The notes under the pieces: generated by a model
What the model was told of the DNA's origin: nothing
Databases searched by the model: none
Seen by the model: only the letters and a program-made list of their open reading frames with translations
Part shown: positions 3,533-13,459 of the stretch, piece by piece
Layout: each line of letters begins with the position of its first letter
How positions within the stretch are numbered: the stretch's first letter is position 1
Assembly (NCBI GenBank): GCA_902630715.1
Contig: CACOVO010000001.1
Location: forward strand, 1 to 64,000
DNA from: an uncultured SAR86 cluster bacterium
Lineage (GTDB): Bacteria > Pseudomonadota > Gammaproteobacteria > Magnimaribacterales > Magnimaribacteraceae
Length of the DNA: 64,000 nt
Direction of reading: 5' to 3'
Translations under genes and position numbers: made by a program

Positions 3533-3550
3533 TTACTCCACGGTAACTGA
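3533..3550 (-). repeat. R1, glmS 3'-end-like repeat
   Basis: Minus strand TCAGTTACCGTGGAGTAA encodes SVTVE-stop. It is the leftmost clear copy. A gene start (GTG 3523) follows 9 nt later. The arm to its left (minus strand TTCAGAACAGTGATT) has no partner I can find, so the left end of the array is open. Confidence 0.75.
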
Positions 3551-3718
3551 TTAGTTTTTTGTGTTACCCTTTTTTTACTTTTATTCCCTGTTTTTTGAAC
3601 ATTTCCATTAGATTTTTCTTGATTAAATCTCTGGAGTCTTCGGGTTTTACGACTACACCCTCTAATTTCTCTTCTTTTGTTTTTTCTTTTTTCTTTTTCA
3701 TAACAGTTACACCCAAAA
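3551..3718 (-). mobile_element. Cassette unit 1 (R1-R2)
   Basis: A 168-bp unit holding one 45-codon gene. Its ends are imperfect inverted repeats: 3555-3567 (TTTTTTGTGTTAC, plus) against 3718-3706 (TTTTGGGTGTAAC, minus), 10 of 13 identical, with the same 4-nt asymmetry as the other units. Confidence 0.55.
3564..3701 (-). CDS. 45-residue Lys-rich micro-protein
   Basis: Too short for the ORF track. ATG at 3701, TAA at 3564-3566; begins MKKKKEKTKEEKLEG and ends KKQGIKVKKG. Strongly basic with a charged N-terminus and a likely helix in DSRDLIKKNLMEMFKKQG. No family is recognised. It fills most of the unit between R1 and R2, starts 17 nt after R2 with a GGGTG sequence upstream, and points the same way as glmS. 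A nucleic-acid-binding or regulatory role would fit the charge, but that is only a guess. It could also be a chance frame; its fit within the cassette pattern argues against this. Confidence 0.5.
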   Translation of the reverse strand: MKKKKEKTKEEKLEGVVVKPEDSRDLIKKNLMEMFKKQGIKVKKG

Positions 3719-3736
3719 TTATTCCACAGTAACGGA
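3719..3736 (-). repeat. R2, glmS 3'-end-like repeat
   Basis: Minus strand TCCGTTACTGTGGAATAA encodes SVTVE-stop. It differs from the chromosomal copy R7 at wobble positions and in the stop codon only. Confidence 0.75.
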
Positions 3737-3943
3737 GCAAGGTGAACGGGTCTTACATTCTCAACTATTTTTGTTCATAAATTTTTTCATTGAAAGAGAA
3801 ATTATTGCTATTAAAAAAAATACCGTGGCAACATCATGGAGACCGTTGATGCCAAATAAACTTTCAGATAAATACATCGCTATTGCAAGAATTATTAAAA
3901 CCCAGAATTCATATTTTTTTAAAAACTTAATCATTTTTTGAAA
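3737..3943 (-). mobile_element. Cassette unit 2 (R2-R3)
   Basis: A 207-bp unit holding one 57-codon membrane micro-protein gene. Unlike the other five units, I could not find terminal inverted repeats at the predicted positions (about 5 of 16 matches), so its arms may have decayed or changed. Confidence 0.5.
3761..3934 (-). CDS. 57-residue two-helix membrane micro-protein
   Basis: Absent from the ORF track because of its length. ATG at 3934, TGA at 3761-3763, starting MIKFLKKYEFWVLIILAIAMY and ending MKKFMNKNS. It has two hydrophobic segments (about 10-29 and 34-50) with basic ends, typical of a membrane hairpin. It starts 9 nt after R3. It resembles the 61-residue protein at 3338-3523 in length, N-terminus (MIK.L.K) and the second-helix motif AT..FLIAI. 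Small hairpin proteins of this type can be toxins, holin-like proteins or enzyme regulators; nothing here tells which. Confidence 0.55.
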   Translation of the reverse strand: MIKFLKKYEFWVLIILAIAMYLSESLFGINGLHDVATVFFLIAIISLSMKKFMNKNS

Positions 3944-3961
3944 CTACTCCACCGTAACGGT
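3944..3961 (-). repeat. R3, glmS 3'-end-like repeat
   Basis: Minus strand ACCGTTACGGTGGAGTAG encodes TVTVE-stop, so the first residue is Thr in place of Ser; the other differences from R7 are synonymous. Confidence 0.75.
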
Positions 3962-3993
3962 ATTGAATTGGAGTATGATTTGATTCATGACGA

Positions 3994-4179
3994 TTAACTG
4001 TAAGAATTCCAATATATCTTAATCATTCTTTTTACTCCTGGTGTTTTAATTTCTTCAATATCCTTTAGGTTTTTGTAAATCAACGAGTATGTGTCTGGTG
4101 TGAGGTCATCAGGTCTGGTTCCCCCTTTCGTCTCTCTAAAAAACTGGGTTGTAAGTGACATTATTTCTTCTTTATCCAT
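3994..4179 (-). CDS. Small soluble protein of cassette unit 3 (second gene)
   Basis: 61 residues (MDKEEIMSLTTQFFRETKGG...). Acid and base residues are mixed, no signal peptide or membrane segment is seen, and predicted helices include EEIMSLTTQFFRET and YSLIYKNLKDIEEI. It overlaps the end of the upstream gene by 19 bp, so it is probably translated with it. I do not recognise the family. A two-gene unit of small proteins raises a toxin-antitoxin pair as a possibility, but neither sequence shows a known toxin motif. Confidence 0.5.
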   Translation of the reverse strand: MDKEEIMSLTTQFFRETKGGTRPDDLTPDTYSLIYKNLKDIEEIKTPGVKRMIKIYWNSYS

Positions 4180-4406
4180 CCTTCTCTTTCATCGTGATTT
4201 AAATGTTGGTCAACTGATGAACCATTTCCAGTATATATATCTTCTAAAGAGGTATCCTTTTGTAAACATTTTCTATATCCAGAGTTTGGAGAATTTATCT
4301 CATTATAAGTTCTACCCCTTCCATCGTTATCAATCCAATTCCACCTATCAATGTGTAGTTTCTTCCTAACTCTTTCGGTGGTTTTATTTGTTCTAAAATA
4401 TTTCAT
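4161..4406 (-). CDS. Small basic protein of cassette unit 3 (first gene)
   Basis: 81 residues (MKYFRTNKTTERVRKKLHIDRWNWIDNDGRGRTYNEINSPN...). The N-terminal third is strongly basic with Trp and Tyr, and the C-terminus is charged (HDEREGWIKKK). There is no signal peptide. ATG at 4406 lies 33 nt after R4. No family is recognised. The opposite-strand ORF at 4091-4369 is its shadow. Confidence 0.5.
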   Translation of the reverse strand: MKYFRTNKTTERVRKKLHIDRWNWIDNDGRGRTYNEINSPNSGYRKCLQKDTSLEDIYTGNGSSVDQHLNHDEREGWIKKK

Positions 4407-4439
4407 TACTTAAATTAATTTTTAAATCACACTTCAAAT

Positions 4440-4457
4440 CTATTCAACGGTGACTGA
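4440..4457 (-). repeat. R4, glmS 3'-end-like repeat, identical to R7
   Basis: Minus strand TCAGTCACCGTTGAATAG encodes SVTVE-stop and matches the chromosomal glmS end (R7) at all 18 positions. R4 may therefore be the displaced end of this host's own glmS, with the units between R4 and R7 arriving later. Confidence 0.85.
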
Positions 4458-4490
4458 TTGGATTTGTGTGTTCCTATTTCTTTTTTTCAT

Positions 4491-5516
4491 TTACTTTTTT
4501 AAAGGTGTCATTACCCAATTTCCTTTAATGTCATAGAAATCAAATACACCTTCATATTTATCGTCTCCTAACCAAATACCGGTCCAGGTTCTATAACCGT
4601 CTCCAAAAATAATATTATTTCCTTCAAAAGACCAAGAATAATTCTTCAAATTTTTTCCTGAGGAATAAATTAAACCATTTCCTCTAAATTCAAATATGTC
4701 TGTTTTTCGTTCGGGGAGATTTTTATACCGTATTTCCCATGTTTTATTTGTGTTAATTCGGATGGTGTCCTGAAAATTAGTTCCAGTTCCAAATATCTCC
4801 CCTGTACTTCCTCCGTTCAATATACGTACTCTATAGAGAAGTTTTCCCTCATTATCTCTTACGTTCTCAAGATAATCCCCGAGACCACCTGTTCTCAGAT
4901 AAAAATATTCAAATTGTGGTTTCCCATTAATAATTCTTTTGTAACTGATCATGGTACCGTCTTTATATTCAGTTAAATCATAACTATTCTCAGTTATATT
5001 AGATCTAAGTGTTCCGTGTCTTTTTCCGTTTTTCCAATTTATTACCTTGTCCAATCTTCCATCTTCAGAATAAAAATTTTCCACACCTTCTTTCTTCCCA
5101 TTCTTAAAATAAACTTCAATAGATAATCTCCCATTAGGATTAAAAATTTTTTCATGAACACGTTCTCCTTTGTAATAGTCAGTAAAAGTAAATAGTTCTC
5201 CACTTGAATAATAATATCTAACAGGTCCGTGAATTACACCACCAACATACTCATAATGTGATTCCAAAGTTCCATCATATCTAAATTGTTTTGAGGGACC
5301 ATCTAATAGACCTCTGTAATAACTTTTCGAAAACTTTATATCTCGATTCGGTTCTTTTAGATAATAACCTATTACAACTCCTGTAATAGGTCTTCTGGTG
5401 TTTTGATCAAGTGTTATCCCTTCTTCAATCAATACGGGACCGGTTATAATTTTTCCCCTATCTTCACCACAGGAAAACAAAAATAAACAACAAAGAATTA
5501 AAAACAACTTATTCAT
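4491..5516 (-). CDS. Lipoprotein with YwqK/MORN-type repeats
   Basis: 341 residues. The N-terminus MNKLFLILCCLFLFSCGED is a lipoprotein signal with a lipobox (LFSC), so Cys16 is probably lipidated and the protein anchored in a membrane facing the periplasm. Residues about 55-205 hold repeated strand units (YYRGLLDGPSKQFRYDGTL, YFKNGKKEGVENFYSEDGRL, NWKNGKRHGTL), the pattern of YwqK and MORN repeat proteins; in some systems YwqK-type proteins act as antitoxins or immunity proteins. The C-terminal part (about 245-341, ending WTGIWLGDDKYEGVFDFY) resembles a small beta-rich domain. It is the main cargo of cassette unit 4. Its role is unknown, possibly surface protection or immunity. Confidence 0.65.
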   Translation of the reverse strand: MNKLFLILCCLFLFSCGEDRGKIITGPVLIEEGITLDQNTRRPITGVVIGYYLKEPNRDIKFSKSYYRGLLDGPSKQFRYDGTLESHYEYVGGVIHGPVRYYYSSGELFTFTDYYKGERVHEKIFNPNGRLSIEVYFKNGKKEGVENFYSEDGRLDKVINWKNGKRHGTLRSNITENSYDLTEYKDGTMISYKRIINGKPQFEYFYLRTGGLGDYLENVRDNEGKLLYRVRILNGGSTGEIFGTGTNFQDTIRINTNKTWEIRYKNLPERKTDIFEFRGNGLIYSSGKNLKNYSWSFEGNNIIFGDGYRTWTGIWLGDDKYEGVFDFYDIKGNWVMTPLKK

Positions 5517-5554
5517 TAACGTTAAGTAAAATTTATATTTTTTTGAATAAAGTT

Positions 5555-5881
5555 CTAGTTTAATGAAAATTTAGATATCTGGGGTATGATTTTCTTCTTC
5601 CTCAATAAATTTATTCTTTCTTCTCGTTGTCTATGTCTCTTTAAGACTGAATAAACTGATGTGTTGAACCAAGTATTACCTCTTTCAGTTTTAATACCCC
5701 AAGAATTCAATTTATCCCTTATCTTTCTATATCCTAGACCCTTTTCCTCATGTAGATATTTGATTAAGTTGAGTACTACTTGTTGTCTTTTTGAATATAC
5801 AGACCTAAAAGTTAGGTCATTTGACTCTATCTCTATTTCGAATTCTAAATATGGGATTGTGTTCTCAAAATAGGAACACAC
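5555..5881 (-). CDS. Recombinase-domain-like small DNA-binding protein (paralogue A)
   Basis: 108 residues from a GTG at 5881 that lies inside the terminal inverted repeat and 4 nt after R5. Residues about 47-85 (EKGLGYRKIRDKLNSWGIKTERGNTWFNTSVYSVLKRH) match the pattern of the 'Recombinase' DNA-binding region of large serine recombinases (G.gyr.Ia..Ln..GikT..G..w....v..iL). There is no N-terminal resolvase catalytic domain, so it cannot be a complete recombinase. It is clearly related to the protein at 6397-6666 (shared GLGYRKI, IKT.RGN, SVYS.LK, R.ER.N). Placed at a unit end and reading inward, it may bind the cassette arm as a recombination or regulation factor; that is inference. Confidence 0.6.
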   Translation of the reverse strand: MCSYFENTIPYLEFEIEIESNDLTFRSVYSKRQQVVLNLIKYLHEEKGLGYRKIRDKLNSWGIKTERGNTWFNTSVYSVLKRHRQREERINLLRKKKIIPQISKFSLN

Positions 5882-5885
5882 AAAT

Positions 5886-5903
5886 TTATTCCACCGTCAC
5901 TGT
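5886..5903 (-). repeat. R5, glmS 3'-end-like repeat
   Basis: Minus strand ACAGTGACGGTGGAATAA encodes TVTVE-stop. The arm of unit 4 abuts it on the left, and the arm of unit 5 begins 1 nt after it on the right. Confidence 0.8.
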
Positions 5904-6337
5904 TTAAGTTTGAACAGAGAATAAGATTTTTAAACCTCTTATCAAACATTATATAAAATCTTCTATACTTTTCTTTCATGTTCTTTTTAGAAACTCTGAC
6001 ATAAAGTCTTCACAGATTTTCTTGACTGCTTTTGCGTCTTCGTCACCAAAAGTTTTGTTTGGTCTATTTTCATAATCATTACAGAACTTTTCACATGCAT
6101 TGCTGGAATAAAATGCAGTAACGCCAAGATGAAGCATGTGTATAATCTCGTTTGTAGGTTTAATATTTTGCTTGGACAAGACAGTGCTGCAAACAGTTTT
6201 TATTTCCTCTTCAGTTGCAACTCTATTATTTGTTGACTCCCACTTTCTCAGATGATTGCCTGCCTGGAAAACGAGAGCATACTGAAGAATATTATATGCT
6301 CCGAATAATTCCTGAATACTTAATTCTCTGTTCAAAC
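5904..6337 (-). mobile_element. Cassette unit 5 (R5-R6) with perfect 18-bp inverted ends
   Basis: Bounded by TAAGTTTGAACAGAGAAT at 5905-5922 (plus) and its exact inverted copy at 6323-6340 (18 of 18), the latter running 3 nt into R6. The arm sequence is unrelated to that of unit 4, but the offset difference is again 4 nt. It carries one gene and no recombinase-like gene. Bases 5904-5975 hold only the arm and AT-rich sequence. Confidence 0.75.
5976..6335 (-). CDS. Unknown soluble helical protein, sole cargo of unit 5
   Basis: 119 residues with a TTG start at 6335 (MNRELSIQELFGAYNILQYAL...), 2 nt after the stop codon formed by R6 and within the terminal arm. Predicted all-helical and soluble, with four Cys (CSTVL, ACEKFCNDY, KICEDF) but no clear metal motif and no signal peptide. 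I do not recognise the family. As the only gene in a short mobile unit beside a restriction system it might be a defence or accessory protein, but there is no direct evidence. The start codon is uncertain because part of the reading frame could begin further in. Confidence 0.5.
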   Translation of the reverse strand: MNRELSIQELFGAYNILQYALVFQAGNHLRKWESTNNRVATEEEIKTVCSTVLSKQNIKPTNEIIHMLHLGVTAFYSSNACEKFCNDYENRPNKTFGDEDAKAVKKICEDFMSEFLKRT

Positions 6338-6355
6338 TTACTCCACCGTTACAGA
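6338..6355 (-). repeat. R6, glmS 3'-end-like repeat
   Basis: Minus strand TCTGTAACGGTGGAGTAA encodes SVTVE-stop; the codon just before it is AAG, so this copy preserves K-S-V-T-V-E as in GlmS (AKSVTVE). Confidence 0.8.
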
Positions 6356-6396
6356 CTTTATCCTACAGAGGGGATTATCTGTGTTTTGATGTTGAG

Positions 6397-6666
6397 GTGA
6401 CTTCCAATCAACTTTGGCACACCCATTATTCTCCCTACCAATCATTTCTCCATAATAAGATAAAGCAACTCAAAGCAGAAGGTTTGGGTTATAGAAAAAT
6501 TGCCAAAAGACTTAACGAAGAAAATATAAAAACCTCTAGGGGCAATATCTTTTTCCCTTCTAGTGTCTATTCCATTTTAAAAAAGAAGAAAATTAGAGAT
6601 GAAAGATTGAATCAAGAATTTGAAAAAAAGATATCTGAGTTTTTGTTTGAGTATGTGATTGATTAG
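6397..6666 (+). CDS. Recombinase-domain-like small DNA-binding protein (paralogue B)
   Basis: 89 residues from a GTG at 6397, about 20 nt inside the left arm of unit 6 and on the opposite strand to all other array genes. Residues about 26-65 (LKAEGLGYRKIAKRLNEENIKTSRGNIFFPSSVYSILKKKK) match the serine-recombinase DNA-binding pattern and paralogue A. There is no catalytic domain. Like paralogue A it starts at a terminal arm and reads inward, so the arm may double as its promoter or operator. It ends 3 bp short of the convergent hsdMS gene. Confidence 0.6.
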   Translation: MTSNQLWHTHYSPYQSFLHNKIKQLKAEGLGYRKIAKRLNEENIKTSRGNIFFPSSVYSILKKKKIRDERLNQEFEKKISEFLFEYVID

Positions 6667-6669
6667 AAC

Positions 6670-9141
6670 CTAGTCCTCACCCCAAACTTTATTGATTCTG
6701 TCTTGAATTTTCTGAGAATAGATTTCGATGAGTTTTTTATTCCCTTCTATAACTTTTCTTTCTTCTTCTATTCTTGAAAGAACATCAACTAAATCATTTT
6801 TTGAAGGAAGTGGAATTTTGTATCTCTTAAGGTCATTGATTGATAAATTTGGTTGATTTAGTGCGGTAGCATTGGATTCAACATATGAATGAAAGTTATT
6901 TGATTGTAGAAGAACAAAAATATAATCTTTAATTGTCTGTGTATCACAACTTATTGATGCGACCCTTTGATTTAAAAGTGAATCATTAAATGACTTAGGA
7001 ACTAGTGCCACTTTTACTCCATCTGCAATAATTGTTCTTGTAAGTGCAACCACAATATCATTTTCTTTAACTAAAAATTTTGAATGCTTTTCTTTGAATT
7101 CACTTGGAAGGAAGTCTATCTCATTAACAAAATCTCCTAACCCGACATTAGTGATTTTTATAGATTTTATTCCCTGCTCTTGTTTAAAGTCTTTACTGCT
7201 AAATGAGTACCCACTTAGTATTGAAGAAACCTTTTCCAACTCAACCATCTCCCAACTTGGATCAATATCAATAGTTGGTTTGTAGTTCTCAACAACTTGT
7301 TTACACCCATCAATAATTTTTTGATACCCCTCTAACTCATCAACTATTTCTTGTTGAACTTCGAGAGGTGGGAGGGGGATTTCTAAGGATTTGATATTTT
7401 TAGTGTTAATGCTTGCTTGATTGACTGCTTTTTGAGCATATCTTTTTGCATCATTTATGAAATTATTTGATTTAAATATAAACAATGCATAAAGAGGTAA
7501 TATTTGATTTTGAATTGGTTTTAATTTAATTAAATTTGAACCATGAACAATTTTTTTATTTAAGTTGAAGATTGCTGTTTTTGCCAAGTGATCCATGCTA
7601 TTTATGTGACTAAATAAAATATCTCCTTTTTGTAAAAAATTTGATTCATCTACAGAATCATCTGTCCATTTTGTTGCTGAAGGGTTAAATGTCCCATCTG
7701 CTATTGAGGCAATTCGTGAAACTCTATACCTTCCCCCTTCATCTTGTTGTTTGACATTTTTTCCGTTTTTAATTTCACTAAATACTGATTCCAAACTCAC
7801 TAGGTCAAAGTTTGATTGACGGTCTATTTGTGTCTTATATCTTTCTAAAGAAAGAATGTAATCATTCTGAATAATATCTTCTTTATCTACATACATTAAA
7901 AGATCTGAGTCTTCATTATCTGACATTTTTATTTGATCAATTACTTGAGGAATATCATTTTCTTTAATTTGATTTCTTTGTGCACCCAAATCAAATCCAT
8001 CATTTTTAACCTCTGCAAAGAAAACTGAATCTCTTTCTTTGTTTAATTTCTTATCAAGAATAAGAATAGATGTCTTAACACCTGCATAAGGATTAAAAAC
8101 CCCGGCAGGTAAAGAAATCACTCCTATCAGTGCATTTTCAATAAGTTGTTTTCTTAACTCTTTATATGCTTTACCAGTTTGAAAAATAATTCCCTCAGGA
8201 ACAATAATTCCTGCACGACCATTGGGTTTGAGGTGTTCTAAGATATAACTGGTAAATAAAACTTCTGCTTTCTTTGATTCAACTCCAAATCTCTTATGAG
8301 GTTGAATTCCACCTTTAGGAGAGAAGAATGGTGGATTTGCAAGAATCACATCAAAGTATTCATTCCATTTATCCTCAGATGAAAGAGTATCGTATTCATC
8401 GATCTTTGGAGTGCTGAAACCATGCAAATACATATTTACTAATGAGAGTCGAATCATTTCGGGAGATATATCGTATCCGGTCACATTCTCACCTACTTTC
8501 TTTTTATCTTCTGCAGAAAGTTGGTCACCTAATTTTTTATCTGTGTTGGTCTTTAAAATATGTTTATAAGATGAAATTAAGAAACCTGCTGTGCCACACG
8601 CAGGATCAAGAATTGTTTCATTCTTTTGTGGGTCAATAATCTCAACAATAAAATCAATAATATGTCTTGGTGTTCTAAATTGCCCTGCATCACCTTGTGA
8701 ACCCATGATAGAAATTAGATATTCAAATGCATCCCCTAGTTTTTCTGAGTGCGAATAATTAAATTCATTTATCTCTTTTAAAAACATGTTCAGTGTTGAG
8801 GGATCCTTAAAAGGAAGAAACGCATTTTTAAAAATATCTCTAAATAAATGAGGTGCAGATGGGTTTAGATACATACTTTCTATTGCTTGACTGTATAGGT
8901 TTACCTTATCGACACCACTGAGTTTTGTATCTAATAGATTCTTCCATGCATACTTTTCATAATCTCCTACGAAGAAAGAACCCTTACCCCCCATTTCAAT
9001 AGATTCCTGATCCATGTCATCCATGAACTTATAAATTAGTCCTGTTGTGATTTGTTCTACTTGAGTTTGAGGGTTTGGAATCTTTCCAACAAGAATATCT
9101 CTCAAAGTATCTATTTTGCGTCTAGTATCAGAATCAAGCAC
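6670..9141 (-). CDS. Type I restriction-modification fused HsdM-HsdS
   Basis: 823 residues joining a DNA adenine methyltransferase (HsdM) to a specificity subunit (HsdS). Residues about 1-125 are the HsdM N-terminal helical domain; the SAM motif DPACGTAGF is at about 179-187 and the catalytic NPPF at about 269-272. After about residue 425 come two target-recognition domains separated by a conserved helical spacer (IPLPPLEVQQEIVDELEGYQ) and closed by a second one (RIEEERKVIEGNKKLIEIYSQKI). Separate hsdM and hsdS genes are the usual form, so the fusion is less common. Its start overlaps the hsdR end by 8 bp. Together with HsdR it should methylate host DNA at a bipartite target and cut unmodified DNA. 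Confidence 0.9.
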   Translation of the reverse strand: MLDSDTRRKIDTLRDILVGKIPNPQTQVEQITTGLIYKFMDDMDQESIEMGGKGSFFVGDYEKYAWKNLLDTKLSGVDKVNLYSQAIESMYLNPSAPHLFRDIFKNAFLPFKDPSTLNMFLKEINEFNYSHSEKLGDAFEYLISIMGSQGDAGQFRTPRHIIDFIVEIIDPQKNETILDPACGTAGFLISSYKHILKTNTDKKLGDQLSAEDKKKVGENVTGYDISPEMIRLSLVNMYLHGFSTPKIDEYDTLSSEDKWNEYFDVILANPPFFSPKGGIQPHKRFGVESKKAEVLFTSYILEHLKPNGRAGIIVPEGIIFQTGKAYKELRKQLIENALIGVISLPAGVFNPYAGVKTSILILDKKLNKERDSVFFAEVKNDGFDLGAQRNQIKENDIPQVIDQIKMSDNEDSDLLMYVDKEDIIQNDYILSLERYKTQIDRQSNFDLVSLESVFSEIKNGKNVKQQDEGGRYRVSRIASIADGTFNPSATKWTDDSVDESNFLQKGDILFSHINSMDHLAKTAIFNLNKKIVHGSNLIKLKPIQNQILPLYALFIFKSNNFINDAKRYAQKAVNQASINTKNIKSLEIPLPPLEVQQEIVDELEGYQKIIDGCKQVVENYKPTIDIDPSWEMVELEKVSSILSGYSFSSKDFKQEQGIKSIKITNVGLGDFVNEIDFLPSEFKEKHSKFLVKENDIVVALTRTIIADGVKVALVPKSFNDSLLNQRVASISCDTQTIKDYIFVLLQSNNFHSYVESNATALNQPNLSINDLKRYKIPLPSKNDLVDVLSRIEEERKVIEGNKKLIEIYSQKIQDRINKVWGED

Positions 9142-11593
9142 TAGATAACCTCTCTAAATCAACCTTTCCTTTAATAAACTGTGGGATCATTTCTTGTAAC
9201 TCTTCTGGTAAATTCTTAAATGCCTGTCCTGAGGGATGAACATTTAGTTCAACAAATCTCCCTTCATCAACTATTTCTCTATATTCAGGATCAGTTACAT
9301 AAGATTCAAAAACCTCTTTTGCATCTTGGAAATGATCATCAGATGGATTTAATTCCTCATCTAATTTTTCAAAATCTTCCTCTAAACATTCATTTTTAGA
9401 TTTAATTCGATCTATATGACCAAATGCATGCAATAACAATTCTGAGACACTGAGTTTTCTATCGAGTTCGAGAGATTTCCCTAGTTTCTGAAGAGTGAAA
9501 TATTCCTCAGGTTTGTCCAAGATATTTTCCTCTAAATAATTTTCCGCACTCTCAAATTCCATGTTTTCAACAAAATTACGAATAGTAGAGTTGTCTGTCA
9601 CCACTGATTGAAAAGATCGGTATAAATCACGATCTATTTTCATTCCTTCATCACTAACAGTTATTTCTTCTAAAAACTTTAAAGGATCTTCGTTGTAATT
9701 AGTTACTTCACCGACTGGATCAATATCAATAGGGTCGTCGATAGGGACGGAAGGTTTTTGAGGGAGTTTTAATATTTCATCGTAATCAAACTCCTTCTCA
9801 AAATATTCATAGTTTCCAAAGAAGTCGAAGAGATTGAATTTATCCTTAATTGAATCAACATGATAAGGTATTTCATTTTGTGAAATCCAATGGAACTTAA
9901 AATCATTCTTTCTAGTACCACGACCTTTCATCTGAATAAATTCACTGGGTGAATACACTGGTCGCATCAAACATAAATTTAATATGTCGGTGCAGTCATA
10001 CCCTGTGGTCATCATTCCTACAGTGACACACACTCTGGTTTTAGAAGTTCGATAATGTTCATTAACTTGAGACTGTCCATTCAAACCATTGTTTCTAAAA
10101 TCTATAGTCATCCTTTGGGATTCATCAATACTTGAGGTTACTTGAACGGCAAAGTCTGAACGATACTGATTAGGAAAAAGTTTATCTGCAAGGATATTTA
10201 ATATCTGAGTTACTTTTGAGGCATGATTTTGAGACACACAAAAAATTAGAGTTTTCCCAATTTCACCAGTGTAGGGGTCTCTTTTTGCTTCTTTGAGAAA
10301 GGTTTCACAAAAAATAGTGTTGGTAGTATCAGAGAAAAACCTCTTTTCGAAATCCTTCTTCAAAAAGGTTTCTTCAACATCATTACCCTCATCATCAACA
10401 CCTTCAAAAATATACCCCTCATCCGACAATAACTCGGTGGTGATTTCAGTCCTAGCATCAAAAACTTTTGGATTAACCAGGTATCCGTCTTTTACACCAT
10501 CTTCTAGTGAATACCTGAATGTGGGTTCTCCACTTTCACAACCAAAGGTGGTGTAAGTGTCCAGCAAAAATCTTTTTTCTAATCCCCTTGGATCTTTCTC
10601 ACCAAGTTTATCGACATCAACTGACCTCAAGAAATTTCTTGGTGTTGCGGTTAGTCCAAGTTTAAATCCATTAAAGTATTCAAAAACCCTTCTGCTTCTT
10701 GCACCTAGAGAACGATGTGCCTCGTCTGAGATCACTAAATCAAAATCATCATGATTAAAGATTTTCTTGTATTTGTTTTTACTTACAAACGATTGCACTG
10801 TGGAGACCACAATCTCTGCTTTTCTCCAATCACCCTGATTTTCTTTCCAAATTACAGTTCTAAAATCATTTTTTAATACTTCATCAAATTCCTTTTGTGC
10901 CTGAGTCTCAAGTTCAAGTCTGTCCACAAGAAACAAGACTCTATTAACTTTATAAAGTCTCAAGAACATTTTGATAATTGCACAAGAAACTAAAGTCTTG
11001 CCTGTGCCTGTTGCCATTTCTAGAAGAAATCTGTCTTTTCCATCTTGTACACTCTTCTGCACAGAATGAACTGCCCCCAACTGGTAATCTCTTAATACCC
11101 TTATTTTATTTCTTGTTAAAAAGTCACTCCTTTTTGATTCATCAAGGTAATTGGGGTCTTTTTCAAAATTTGGGTGCTGAGTTACCCCAATGTAGTTATT
11201 AGAAATTTTCTCATCTTCTTTAACAGGTGGATTAAATTTCTCTCTTCTTAGTTCAATTTGCTCTTGAGTGGGAAATTGGTCTATAACGAATGGACTGCCT
11301 TGCTCTAAATCCCATTGATAGTGCTGAATTCCATTAGAGAGAATCACAAATCTGCAACCTAGTGAGTCTGCGTAACTCCGTGCCTGTTCTTTACCATCTA
11401 GGGGGGACTTCAGTTCTCTTTTTGCTTCAATTATGCACAGGTATGATCCTTTAGAATCAAGCAAGGTGTAATCAGCAAACCCTGAATCATTTCGGGTTTC
11501 CGTTTCGACATTTACTTTTCCATCATCACCTGGCAAAACCCATCCGGATTCTCTTAAGAGTTTGTCGATTATGATTCTTGCACTTGCCTCCAT
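9134..11593 (-). CDS. hsdR: Type I restriction enzyme R subunit
   Basis: 819 residues. The N-terminal nuclease domain has D41 and E56-A57-K58 (GFADYTLL...LCIIEAK), the PD-(D/E)xK pattern. An SF2 translocase follows, with Walker A ATGTGKT at about 194-200, DEAH at 290-293, the TATP motif after GFKLGL, and QMKGRGTR in motif VI. The C-terminus (about 620-819) is the EcoEI-type R C-terminal region that docks to the methylase. It is first in the two-gene operon, starts 30 nt after the glmS stop, and probably can be read from glmS transcripts or from a promoter in the unit arm. It needs the HsdM-HsdS fusion downstream for activity. Confidence 0.92.
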   Translation of the reverse strand: MEASARIIIDKLLRESGWVLPGDDGKVNVETETRNDSGFADYTLLDSKGSYLCIIEAKRELKSPLDGKEQARSYADSLGCRFVILSNGIQHYQWDLEQGSPFVIDQFPTQEQIELRREKFNPPVKEDEKISNNYIGVTQHPNFEKDPNYLDESKRSDFLTRNKIRVLRDYQLGAVHSVQKSVQDGKDRFLLEMATGTGKTLVSCAIIKMFLRLYKVNRVLFLVDRLELETQAQKEFDEVLKNDFRTVIWKENQGDWRKAEIVVSTVQSFVSKNKYKKIFNHDDFDLVISDEAHRSLGARSRRVFEYFNGFKLGLTATPRNFLRSVDVDKLGEKDPRGLEKRFLLDTYTTFGCESGEPTFRYSLEDGVKDGYLVNPKVFDARTEITTELLSDEGYIFEGVDDEGNDVEETFLKKDFEKRFFSDTTNTIFCETFLKEAKRDPYTGEIGKTLIFCVSQNHASKVTQILNILADKLFPNQYRSDFAVQVTSSIDESQRMTIDFRNNGLNGQSQVNEHYRTSKTRVCVTVGMMTTGYDCTDILNLCLMRPVYSPSEFIQMKGRGTRKNDFKFHWISQNEIPYHVDSIKDKFNLFDFFGNYEYFEKEFDYDEILKLPQKPSVPIDDPIDIDPVGEVTNYNEDPLKFLEEITVSDEGMKIDRDLYRSFQSVVTDNSTIRNFVENMEFESAENYLEENILDKPEEYFTLQKLGKSLELDRKLSVSELLLHAFGHIDRIKSKNECLEEDFEKLDEELNPSDDHFQDAKEVFESYVTDPEYREIVDEGRFVELNVHPSGQAFKNLPEELQEMIPQFIKGKVDLERLSSA

Positions 11594-11623
11594 GTTTACA
11601 AGTATAAACCCCCTCTGTAGAAC

Positions 11624-11641
11624 CTATTCAACGGTGACTGA
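11624..11641 (-). repeat. R7, chromosomal glmS 3' end (attachment core)
   Basis: Minus strand TCAGTCACCGTTGAATAG is the native last five codons plus stop of glmS. It is the template of the seven-copy repeat family and identical to R4. The inferred dyad centre of flanking arms falls about 2 nt to the coding side of the 18-bp midpoint. Confidence 0.8.
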
Positions 11642-13459
11642 CTTGGCCAAGTTTCTTGGCTGATCAATATCTGTGCCTTTCAGAATAGCAACATGATAAG
11701 CGAGGAGCTGAAGAGGTATAGAATAAATAAGAGGTGCAATGAGTTCTGGTATTTCAGGAAGCTCAATAAATCTTGTAATAGATTCATCATCGTGATGAGC
11801 GTCAGAATGCCCAAAAACATAAAGTTTACCGCCTCTTGCTCTTACCTCTTCTAAGTTTGATTGTAGTTTCTCTAGAAGATCATCATTTGGAGCGACTGCA
11901 ACTACTGGCATTTCTGAATCAACCAGGGCTAAAGGTCCGTGTTTTAATTCGCCTGCAGGATAAGCTTCAGCATGTATGTAGGAGATCTCCTTTAGCTTCA
12001 AGGCACCTTCCATAGCGACAGGATAATGAATACCACGTCCTAAGAATAAAGCATGTTCTTTCTGATCAAAATCTTCAGCCATTTCTATTATTTGATCTTC
12101 TAAAGCCATGACGGAATCTAAAGAATCTGGAAGCGCTCTCAAAGAGTTGTTGATAGCATTTTCTGCAACAGACGAGAGGCCGTGATGTCTGCCGAGAATA
12201 AGAGTCAACATCAATAAACCTACAAGTTGTGTTGTGAAAGCTTTCGTTGAGGCAACGCCTATCTCAGGTCCTGCCTTGGTCAGAAAAACAAGATCAGATT
12301 CGCGCGCCAGAGAGCTTGAAGGAACATTACAGATTCCTAGACAAGCTAAATAATCTGAGTCCTTAGCCGAGCTAAGACAAGCTAAGGTATCAGCAGTTTC
12401 GCCAGACTGAGATATAGTAATAAAAAGCGTATTGGGGGCAACTACCTTGTTCCGGTAACGGAACTCACTTGCAACTTCTACACTGCATGGCAATCCGGCG
12501 AGTCCCTCTAACCAATATTTGGCTACCGTGCCAGCATGAAAACTTGTGCCACAGGCTACTATTTGAACTGATTCTACTTGCTTAAAGACCTCGGGGGCAC
12601 TCGGGCCAAAAATTTCTTCTTGAACTCCAGAATCAGTTAATTGGCCTTCTAAAAGTCCTTTAATTTTAGCGGGTTGCTCATTGATCTCTTTAAGCATGAA
12701 ATGTCTATAATCTCCCTTATCTACAGTTTCTCCTAAAGACTTCGCAACCACTACAGGCCTTTCAACTTCTTTATCCTCAAGGTTCCAATACTTTGTTTCA
12801 GTTGAGGTAATTTCTGCAAGATCTCCTTCTTCAAGAAATACAAAGTTTTCAGCAAAATCTGCAAGCGCTAGTTGATCCGAAGCGATGAAGTTCTCTCCAT
12901 GGCCCATGCCAATAACTAACGGGCTTCCTTTTCTTGCAGCTGATAAAATTCCTGGCTCACTCTCACAAACAGCGCCAATCGCATAGGCGCCCCTTAAGTC
13001 TTTTACGGCCAACTTTAGAGCATCTGTAAGAGACAGATTTTTCTCTGTCATTTTTGCATGAATTAAATGCGCAATGACTTCTGTATCGGTTTCTGATTCG
13101 AATTTATAACCCAGGGCCTTAAGTGTTGTTCTAATTTCTTGATGATTCTCAATTATGCCATTGTGGATTACATATACTTGGTTGTTTGAGTGATGAGGAT
13201 GTGCATTTGCCTCTGTTGGTAGGCCATGAGTTGCCCATCTGGTATGGGCAATTCCCGTATTTCCATTGACGGGATTTTTATCAATTGAATTTTGTAGCTC
13301 TGCTACCTTGCCCGTACTCTTGAATACTTGAACTTTTTCTGTTTCATCAAAAATAGCAAGTCCTGCTGAATCATAGCCTCTATACTCTTGGCGCAAGAGA
13401 CCTATCAGCAATTTATCTACTGAAGGCTTACTGGAAGCAACCCCGATAATTCCACACAT
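11624..13459 (-). CDS. glmS: Glutamine-fructose-6-phosphate aminotransferase
   Basis: Makes glucosamine-6-phosphate from fructose-6-phosphate and glutamine, the first step to UDP-GlcNAc for peptidoglycan and LPS. 611 residues, the normal length. Cys2 after Met (MCGIIGVASS) is the N-terminal nucleophile of the glutaminase domain; two SIS sugar isomerase domains follow (CGTSFHAGTVAKYW, TISQSGETADT) and the C-terminus is DQPRNLAKSVTVE. It lies 3 nt after glmU, as usual after the atp operon. The last 18 nt are repeat R7 of the adjoining array, so the gene end appears to be an integration target whose coding content is restored by each insertion. Confidence 0.97.
   Translation of the reverse strand: MCGIIGVASSKPSVDKLLIGLLRQEYRGYDSAGLAIFDETEKVQVFKSTGKVAELQNSIDKNPVNGNTGIAHTRWATHGLPTEANAHPHHSNNQVYVIHNGIIENHQEIRTTLKALGYKFESETDTEVIAHLIHAKMTEKNLSLTDALKLAVKDLRGAYAIGAVCESEPGILSAARKGSPLVIGMGHGENFIASDQLALADFAENFVFLEEGDLAEITSTETKYWNLEDKEVERPVVVAKSLGETVDKGDYRHFMLKEINEQPAKIKGLLEGQLTDSGVQEEIFGPSAPEVFKQVESVQIVACGTSFHAGTVAKYWLEGLAGLPCSVEVASEFRYRNKVVAPNTLFITISQSGETADTLACLSSAKDSDYLACLGICNVPSSSLARESDLVFLTKAGPEIGVASTKAFTTQLVGLLMLTLILGRHHGLSSVAENAINNSLRALPDSLDSVMALEDQIIEMAEDFDQKEHALFLGRGIHYPVAMEGALKLKEISYIHAEAYPAGELKHGPLALVDSEMPVVAVAPNDDLLEKLQSNLEEVRARGGKLYVFGHSDAHHDDESITRFIELPEIPELIAPLIYSIPLQLLAYHVAILKGTDIDQPRNLAKSVTVE

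Follow-up and report, generated by a model that had tools for sequence, protein, structure and literature searches.

A putative non-autonomous gene cassette in a site-specific array at the 3′ end of glmS in SAR86

Unit 5, a 434-bp segment of the window (the whole 64,000-nucleotide stretch of DNA analyzed here), is probably a non-autonomous single-gene cassette residing in a site-specific array at the 3′ end of glmS, with a large serine recombinase (LSR) acting in trans from a circular element to join its attP to the array. In circular form, the unit would present an attP consisting of a 17-bp arm, 10 bp, the dinucleotide AC, another 10 bp and the inverted arm, the inner 22 bp of which would contain a copy of the glmS end. 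An LSR from a circular element could then join this attP to the glmS end itself or to another core of the array, and exchange at AC would hand glmS the T-V-E-stop codons of the cassette, so that GlmS would stay intact and a fresh target would be left.

If this is true, the array represents, besides integrons and SCC, a further means by which an abundant marine order stores single genes at one safe location, and gene movement among streamlined ocean bacteria with few obvious mobile elements becomes testable. Moreover, glmS arrays, which hold several restriction-modification systems together with many unknown small genes, would provide a list of candidate defense genes as well as a source of diverse recombinase/att pairs.

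Unit 5 and the glmS array in the window

The window was assigned to a SAR86 genome, considering that the closest relatives of its glmS are named SAR86 records. The ORF list and repeat searches placed glmS on the minus strand (11624 to 13459), with its last codons (11624 to 11641) as the primary target, and revealed that at least six cassettes, unit 5 among them, stand in tandem downstream of this gene. Exactly seven stretches coding for [S/T]VTVE-stop lie downstream of glmS (3533 to 11641), each on the minus strand, and every cassette boundary in the array repeats the 3′ end of glmS, encoding SVTVE-stop with synonymous codon changes. Since these copies differ almost only at synonymous sites, they appear to have descended from real glmS ends.

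The cassette next to glmS is unit 6 (6356 to 11623, minus strand), a type I restriction-modification cassette recognized by ORFs, domain searches and arm pairing, with arms CTACAGAGGGG and CCCCTCTGTAG; at its far end, domain searches and HTH comparison identified an 89-aa LSR-type HTH protein (6397 to 6666, plus strand), the frame of which is open to the cassette edge. Unit 5 follows between two glmS-end cores found by the repeat search, TCTGTAACGGTGGAGTAA toward unit 6 (6338 to 6355, minus strand) and ACAGTGACGGTGGAATAA toward unit 4 (5886 to 5903, minus strand). Unit 4 (4458 to 5885, minus strand), delimited in the same manner, has arms ATTTGTGTGTTCCTATT matching at 17/17 positions and encodes a MORN-like protein and a 108-aa LSR-type HTH protein (5555 to 5881, minus strand) with its start within the arm. 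Beyond it, repeats and arm pairing outlined unit 3 (3962 to 4439; arms ATTTGAAGTGTGATTT, 13/17), unit 2 (3737 to 3943; no clear paired arms, 6/17) and unit 1 (3551 to 3718; arms 12/17), all on the minus strand and accompanied by further glmS-end cores (4440 to 4457, 3944 to 3961 and 3719 to 3736, minus strand) up to the last recognized core of the array (3533 to 3550, minus strand). In addition, a 171-bp direct repeat with 75% identity, perhaps part of a repetitive protein gene, was observed at the window edge (1 to 510).

A preliminary description of unit 5 had proposed perfect inverted ends around one helical gene without a recombinase, and each of these features was borne out. The repeat search of the window recovered a perfect 18-bp inverted repeat (5905 to 5922 and 6323 to 6340), the chance match of a given 18-mer pair being ∼4 × 10^-11 at the per-base complement probability of 0.265 in the window. 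Repeat search and arm comparison located the glmS-side arm, GTTTGAACAGAGAATTA (6321 to 6337, minus strand), and its inverted copy at the far end, GTTTGAACAGAGAATAA (5908 to 5924, plus strand), which matches it at 16/17 positions. As copies of the glmS 3′ end flank the unit (5886 to 5903 and 6338 to 6355), the mobile segment most likely extends from AC to AC of these repeats, giving putative excision limits, based on the exchange map and the repeats, at about 5897 to 6348 (452 bp, minus strand).

The only gene within these limits (5976 to 6335, minus strand) starts with a TTG codon that falls within the glmS-side arm and encodes a 119-aa protein, for which AlphaFold2 predicted a confident five-helix fold (mean pLDDT, 88.9). 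Searches of Pfam, PHROGs, PADLOC and NCBIfam returned neither a recombinase domain nor a significant match of any other kind, a search of the PDB with the model gave no convincing fold match, and no homolog was detected in the phages or viral contigs searched. The sole homolog found (70% identity) comes from a SAR86 bacterium of another family (locus L150), where it lies inside a 2.2-kb cassette that also encodes an LSR-type HTH protein and has paired arms differing from those of unit 5. The gene was thus not seen in a fixed, armless chromosomal context, the arrangement that the preliminary description had named as evidence against mobility. Given the neighboring cargo, a role in defense would be a guess.

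Cassette arms, exchange point and spread of the arrays

The glmS-end repeat pattern was detected in 157 of 203 SAR86 genomes, with three or more copies in about 70 of them (counted from a table), while 365 non-SAR86 genomes drawn from the whole class Gammaproteobacteria never had more than two copies. Four of the latter had two copies on one strand. As candidate arrays outside SAR86, pairs of glmS ends were rejected in one case as a partial glmS duplication and in two cases as copies on separate contigs; one small-genome gammaproteobacterium (G550) had a single cassette-like insertion of about 1 kb (L258:2430-3427), with one cassette-like 309-aa gene between two glmS-end copies. No published description of a glmS cassette array was found in the open-access literature, so an earlier description elsewhere is possible.

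From about 85 loci, 221 units were extracted (median, about 0.66 kb), cassettes being counted without phylogenetic independence. Their ORFs point mostly in the direction of glmS (332 versus 54 against), and the cassette genes are presumably read from the glmS side. The encoded proteins formed 246 clusters, including 184 singletons, and the identified cargo comprised type I and type III restriction enzymes, an MvaI/BcnI-type endonuclease, DNA methylases, an HNH protein, sulfotransferases and MORN-like proteins. A conserved recombinase was looked for at the far end of the arrays, and none was found. One widely shared sulfotransferase cassette (L163_u2, L167_u1, L184_u7, L185_u2 and L186_u3) keeps its right end, has differing, unpaired left ends and is possibly composite or worn.

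Read inward from the boundary, the two ends of a cassette match over ∼17 bases, after which the matching stops, and these 17-bp arms differ between cassettes and are matched within one (221 cassettes). Allowing small shifts, an arm match of at least 13/17 was found within 51% of units, versus 7% for the arm of the neighboring unit and 6% for shuffled pairs, and about 40% of units lacked clear paired arms. The spacing was exactly equal in 109 of 113 good arm pairs, and the extracted cassettes represented at least 27 arm families. Two cassettes with the same gene and bodies 93% identical (L186_u1 and L198_u3) have different arm pairs, yet each pair is self-matching. In a subset of cassettes termed type E (in L195, L198, L190, L184, L039, L134 and others), the arms vary strongly next to a conserved leader, a non-coding stretch that makes up the first ∼185 nt, ends at the start codon, is common to cassettes with different genes and is accompanied by a conserved tail of about 35 nt. 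This leader, which had no Rfam match in the arrays searched, is possibly a promoter or a structured RNA.

Comparison of the same cassette in different surroundings pointed to the site of exchange. At left ends, core position 5 goes with the context (identity, 0.30) and positions from 14 onward with the cassette (0.93), whereas at right ends position 5 goes with the cassette (0.79) and positions from 14 onward fall close to background, which places the main exchange boundary at the invariant AC. Bases to the right of AC move with the cassette, while those to the left remain with the context. The AC of the glmS end, mapped in this way, is also the center of the arm-10-AC-10-arm dyad. At left ends, the synonymous sites at core positions 8 and 11, to the right of AC, went with the cassette in only about half of the comparisons and were shuffled as a block; a 2-bp serine exchange would predict less shuffling at these positions and would leave this excess unexplained. 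Transfer is recent, as L039 and L195 share a 230-bp cassette with 100% identity, although their glmS genes are only 65% identical over the aligned part. Thus, the view of unit 5 as a mobile, non-autonomous unit is well supported by an order-wide system, near-identical cassettes in distant hosts, cassette-specific paired arms and the lack of any LSR in the 221 cassettes.

These data also make it highly improbable that the glmS-end repeats are long target-site duplications generated by a Tn7-like or other DDE transposase: glmS is a known Tn7 target gene, and inverted ends with direct flanking repeats at glmS would fit such an origin, but the repeats on the two sides do not duplicate a single host sequence and segregate to the left and right of AC, which indicates exchange rather than duplication, and no Tns transposition genes were seen in the window array.

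Candidate recombinases and alternative enzymes

The two HTH proteins of the window (5555 to 5881, minus strand, and 6397 to 6666, plus strand) match the Recombinase domain (PF07508) of LSRs, one above the curated cutoff and one just at it. Members of this family are encoded in 17 units, in 16 of which an open frame extends through the arm from the edge of the cassette, and in 20 genomes they were found only within or adjoining arrays. Apart from this small HTH domain, the 221 cassettes contain no LSR relatives. Distances between HTH proteins are correlated with those between near arms and also with those between far arms; since the near arm shares sequence with the HTH and is paired with the far arm, the correlation is not independent proof of binding.

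A viral-contig search with the HTH family revealed three contigs of a virus database (L271, L272 and L270) that carry, in this order, an LSR gene, a glmS-end core flanked by inverted arms and an HTH of this family. These contigs share with the cassettes the att-site layout of 17-10-AC-10-17 with AC at the dyad center, that is, a dyad-symmetric attP of about 50 bp centered on the crossover dinucleotide, as expected for LSRs. No SAR86 origin is assigned to them. A complete version of L272 (L276; 10,053 bp) has a 99-bp terminal overlap and is therefore probably circular, and a Rep-like ORF was recognized in it by eye. In L270 (also present as L277), the LSR frame (L270:53-1858) runs through attP, with the core at 1492, into the HTH domain as one ORF, so that integration would split off the C-terminal HTH domain of the LSR; the LSR and HTH parts of L271 and L276 are already separate ORFs. 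Two of the LSRs (P0001 and P0002) contain Resolvase, Recombinase and, weakly, zinc-ribbon domains, and the LSR profile matches the A118 integrase structure. At another locus (L293), the glmS end is followed directly by a related HTH, the layout that an integrated copy should have. When viral contigs were screened by the arm pattern, the single hit (L243) was rejected as a chance match within a phage structural gene, and none had the core plus the arm pattern.

Overall, the interpretation in the preliminary description was supported, and the movement in trans that it put forward is probable. The three contigs above show that LSR elements can carry an att site of this kind, but the search that the description had suggested for recombinase-bearing units with the arms of unit 5 found no LSR with those arms; unit 5 is presumably moved by LSRs of the L270/L271/L276 type or by relatives, with the arms serving as their putative recognition sequences. 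No Resolvase-domain proteins were detected in 18 of the 20 SAR86 genomes tested, which are drafts from which plasmids may be missing, and the LSRs of the remaining two lie beside tRNA-Ala genes (L244 and L245), apparently in separate islands. Other tyrosine or serine integrases of SAR86 were rejected as cassette movers, as those inspected lay in islands, several beside tRNA genes, and none was linked to glmS.

An improbable alternative is insertion of the cassettes by a tyrosine recombinase, either XerC/XerD or an unseen integrase, with a 6- to 8-bp overlap reaching from AC to GA in the glmS end. In left-end comparisons, the block-wise mixing of core positions 8 and 11 resembles a heteroduplex overlap, and many array-bearing genomes have XerC and XerD as their only tyrosine recombinases. 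However, the dyad center is AC rather than the middle of the proposed overlap, the enzyme gene found beside such sites encodes a serine recombinase, and dif, located in eight genomes, is unlike the glmS core, on which ground the XerCD/dif route was rejected.

Less probable still is an integron-like mechanism, in which the paired arms would fold one strand into a hairpin recognized by shape by a recombinase, so that arm sequences could vary while pairing was kept. The many arm families with pairing kept within each unit, as well as the single-gene cassettes in one orientation, are consistent with it, although the exchange point would lie in the loop and not in the stem, a G-T versus A-C wobble test revealed no significant strand preference (P = 0.057), related arms accompany related HTH proteins and no integron integrase was found. 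With regard to the last point, several array-bearing near-complete genomes have just two strong, Xer-sized PF00589 proteins; the genome of the window is 64% complete.

Under the LSR-mediated reading, the small SAR86 cassettes would most simply be stripped derivatives that keep attP, and sometimes an HTH, and depend on an LSR in trans. We lean slightly toward a wider picture, in which SAR86 maintain an integron-like gene library at glmS that is loaded in trans by the LSRs of circulating circles; at least one such circle would carry attP inside the LSR frame, such that integration cuts off the C-terminal DNA-binding domain and locks the element in, and the hypervariable matched arms would act as interchangeable address labels for different recombinases.

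Relation to known systems

The glmS array appears SCC/ECC-like in its likely chemistry and integron-like in its layout; since an rlmH target with ccr genes and an integron integrase with attC were looked for and not found, it is a member of neither. SCC of staphylococci and ECC of enterococci are integrated at the 3′ end of rlmH by the LSRs CcrA/CcrB, and their att sites at the rlmH end form the same kind of dyad (PMC6222049). Similarly, the glmS cassettes are inserted at the 3′ end of a conserved gene as possible tandem elements, with direct repeats containing the gene end on their flanks and inverted repeats at the putative circle junction, and their dyad-symmetric att site in the circle and use of an LSR are likewise predicted. 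The best NCBIfam matches include CcrA and CcrB for P0001 and CcrB for P0002, at about 70 bits versus Ccr cutoffs of 700 to 900. Unlike SCC/ECC, the target is glmS, the hosts are marine gammaproteobacteria, neither ccrAB/ccrC nor any other LSR occurs in the 221 units, and the cassettes are mostly <1 kb with one or two genes and arms that differ between cassettes.

As in integron arrays, tandem, compact and mostly codirectional cassettes with highly diverse genes and no recombinase of their own are gathered at one site. In contrast to integrons, in which attC lies at one end, the paired arms lie at opposite ends around the gene, as judged from arm positions, and recombination takes place at the end of a housekeeping gene. 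Tn7 and its relatives at attTn7 also use the conserved 3′ end of glmS as an address. Insertion of Tn7 takes place beyond the stop codon and creates a short duplication, whereas glmS cassettes are exchanged within the last codons and have no identical target-site duplication on both sides. Lastly, some phages carry attP inside a regulatory gene, forming integration-dependent switches. The attP inside the LSR frame of L270 resembles these, in that integration would separate a C-terminal domain, but the interrupted gene is that of the recombinase itself.
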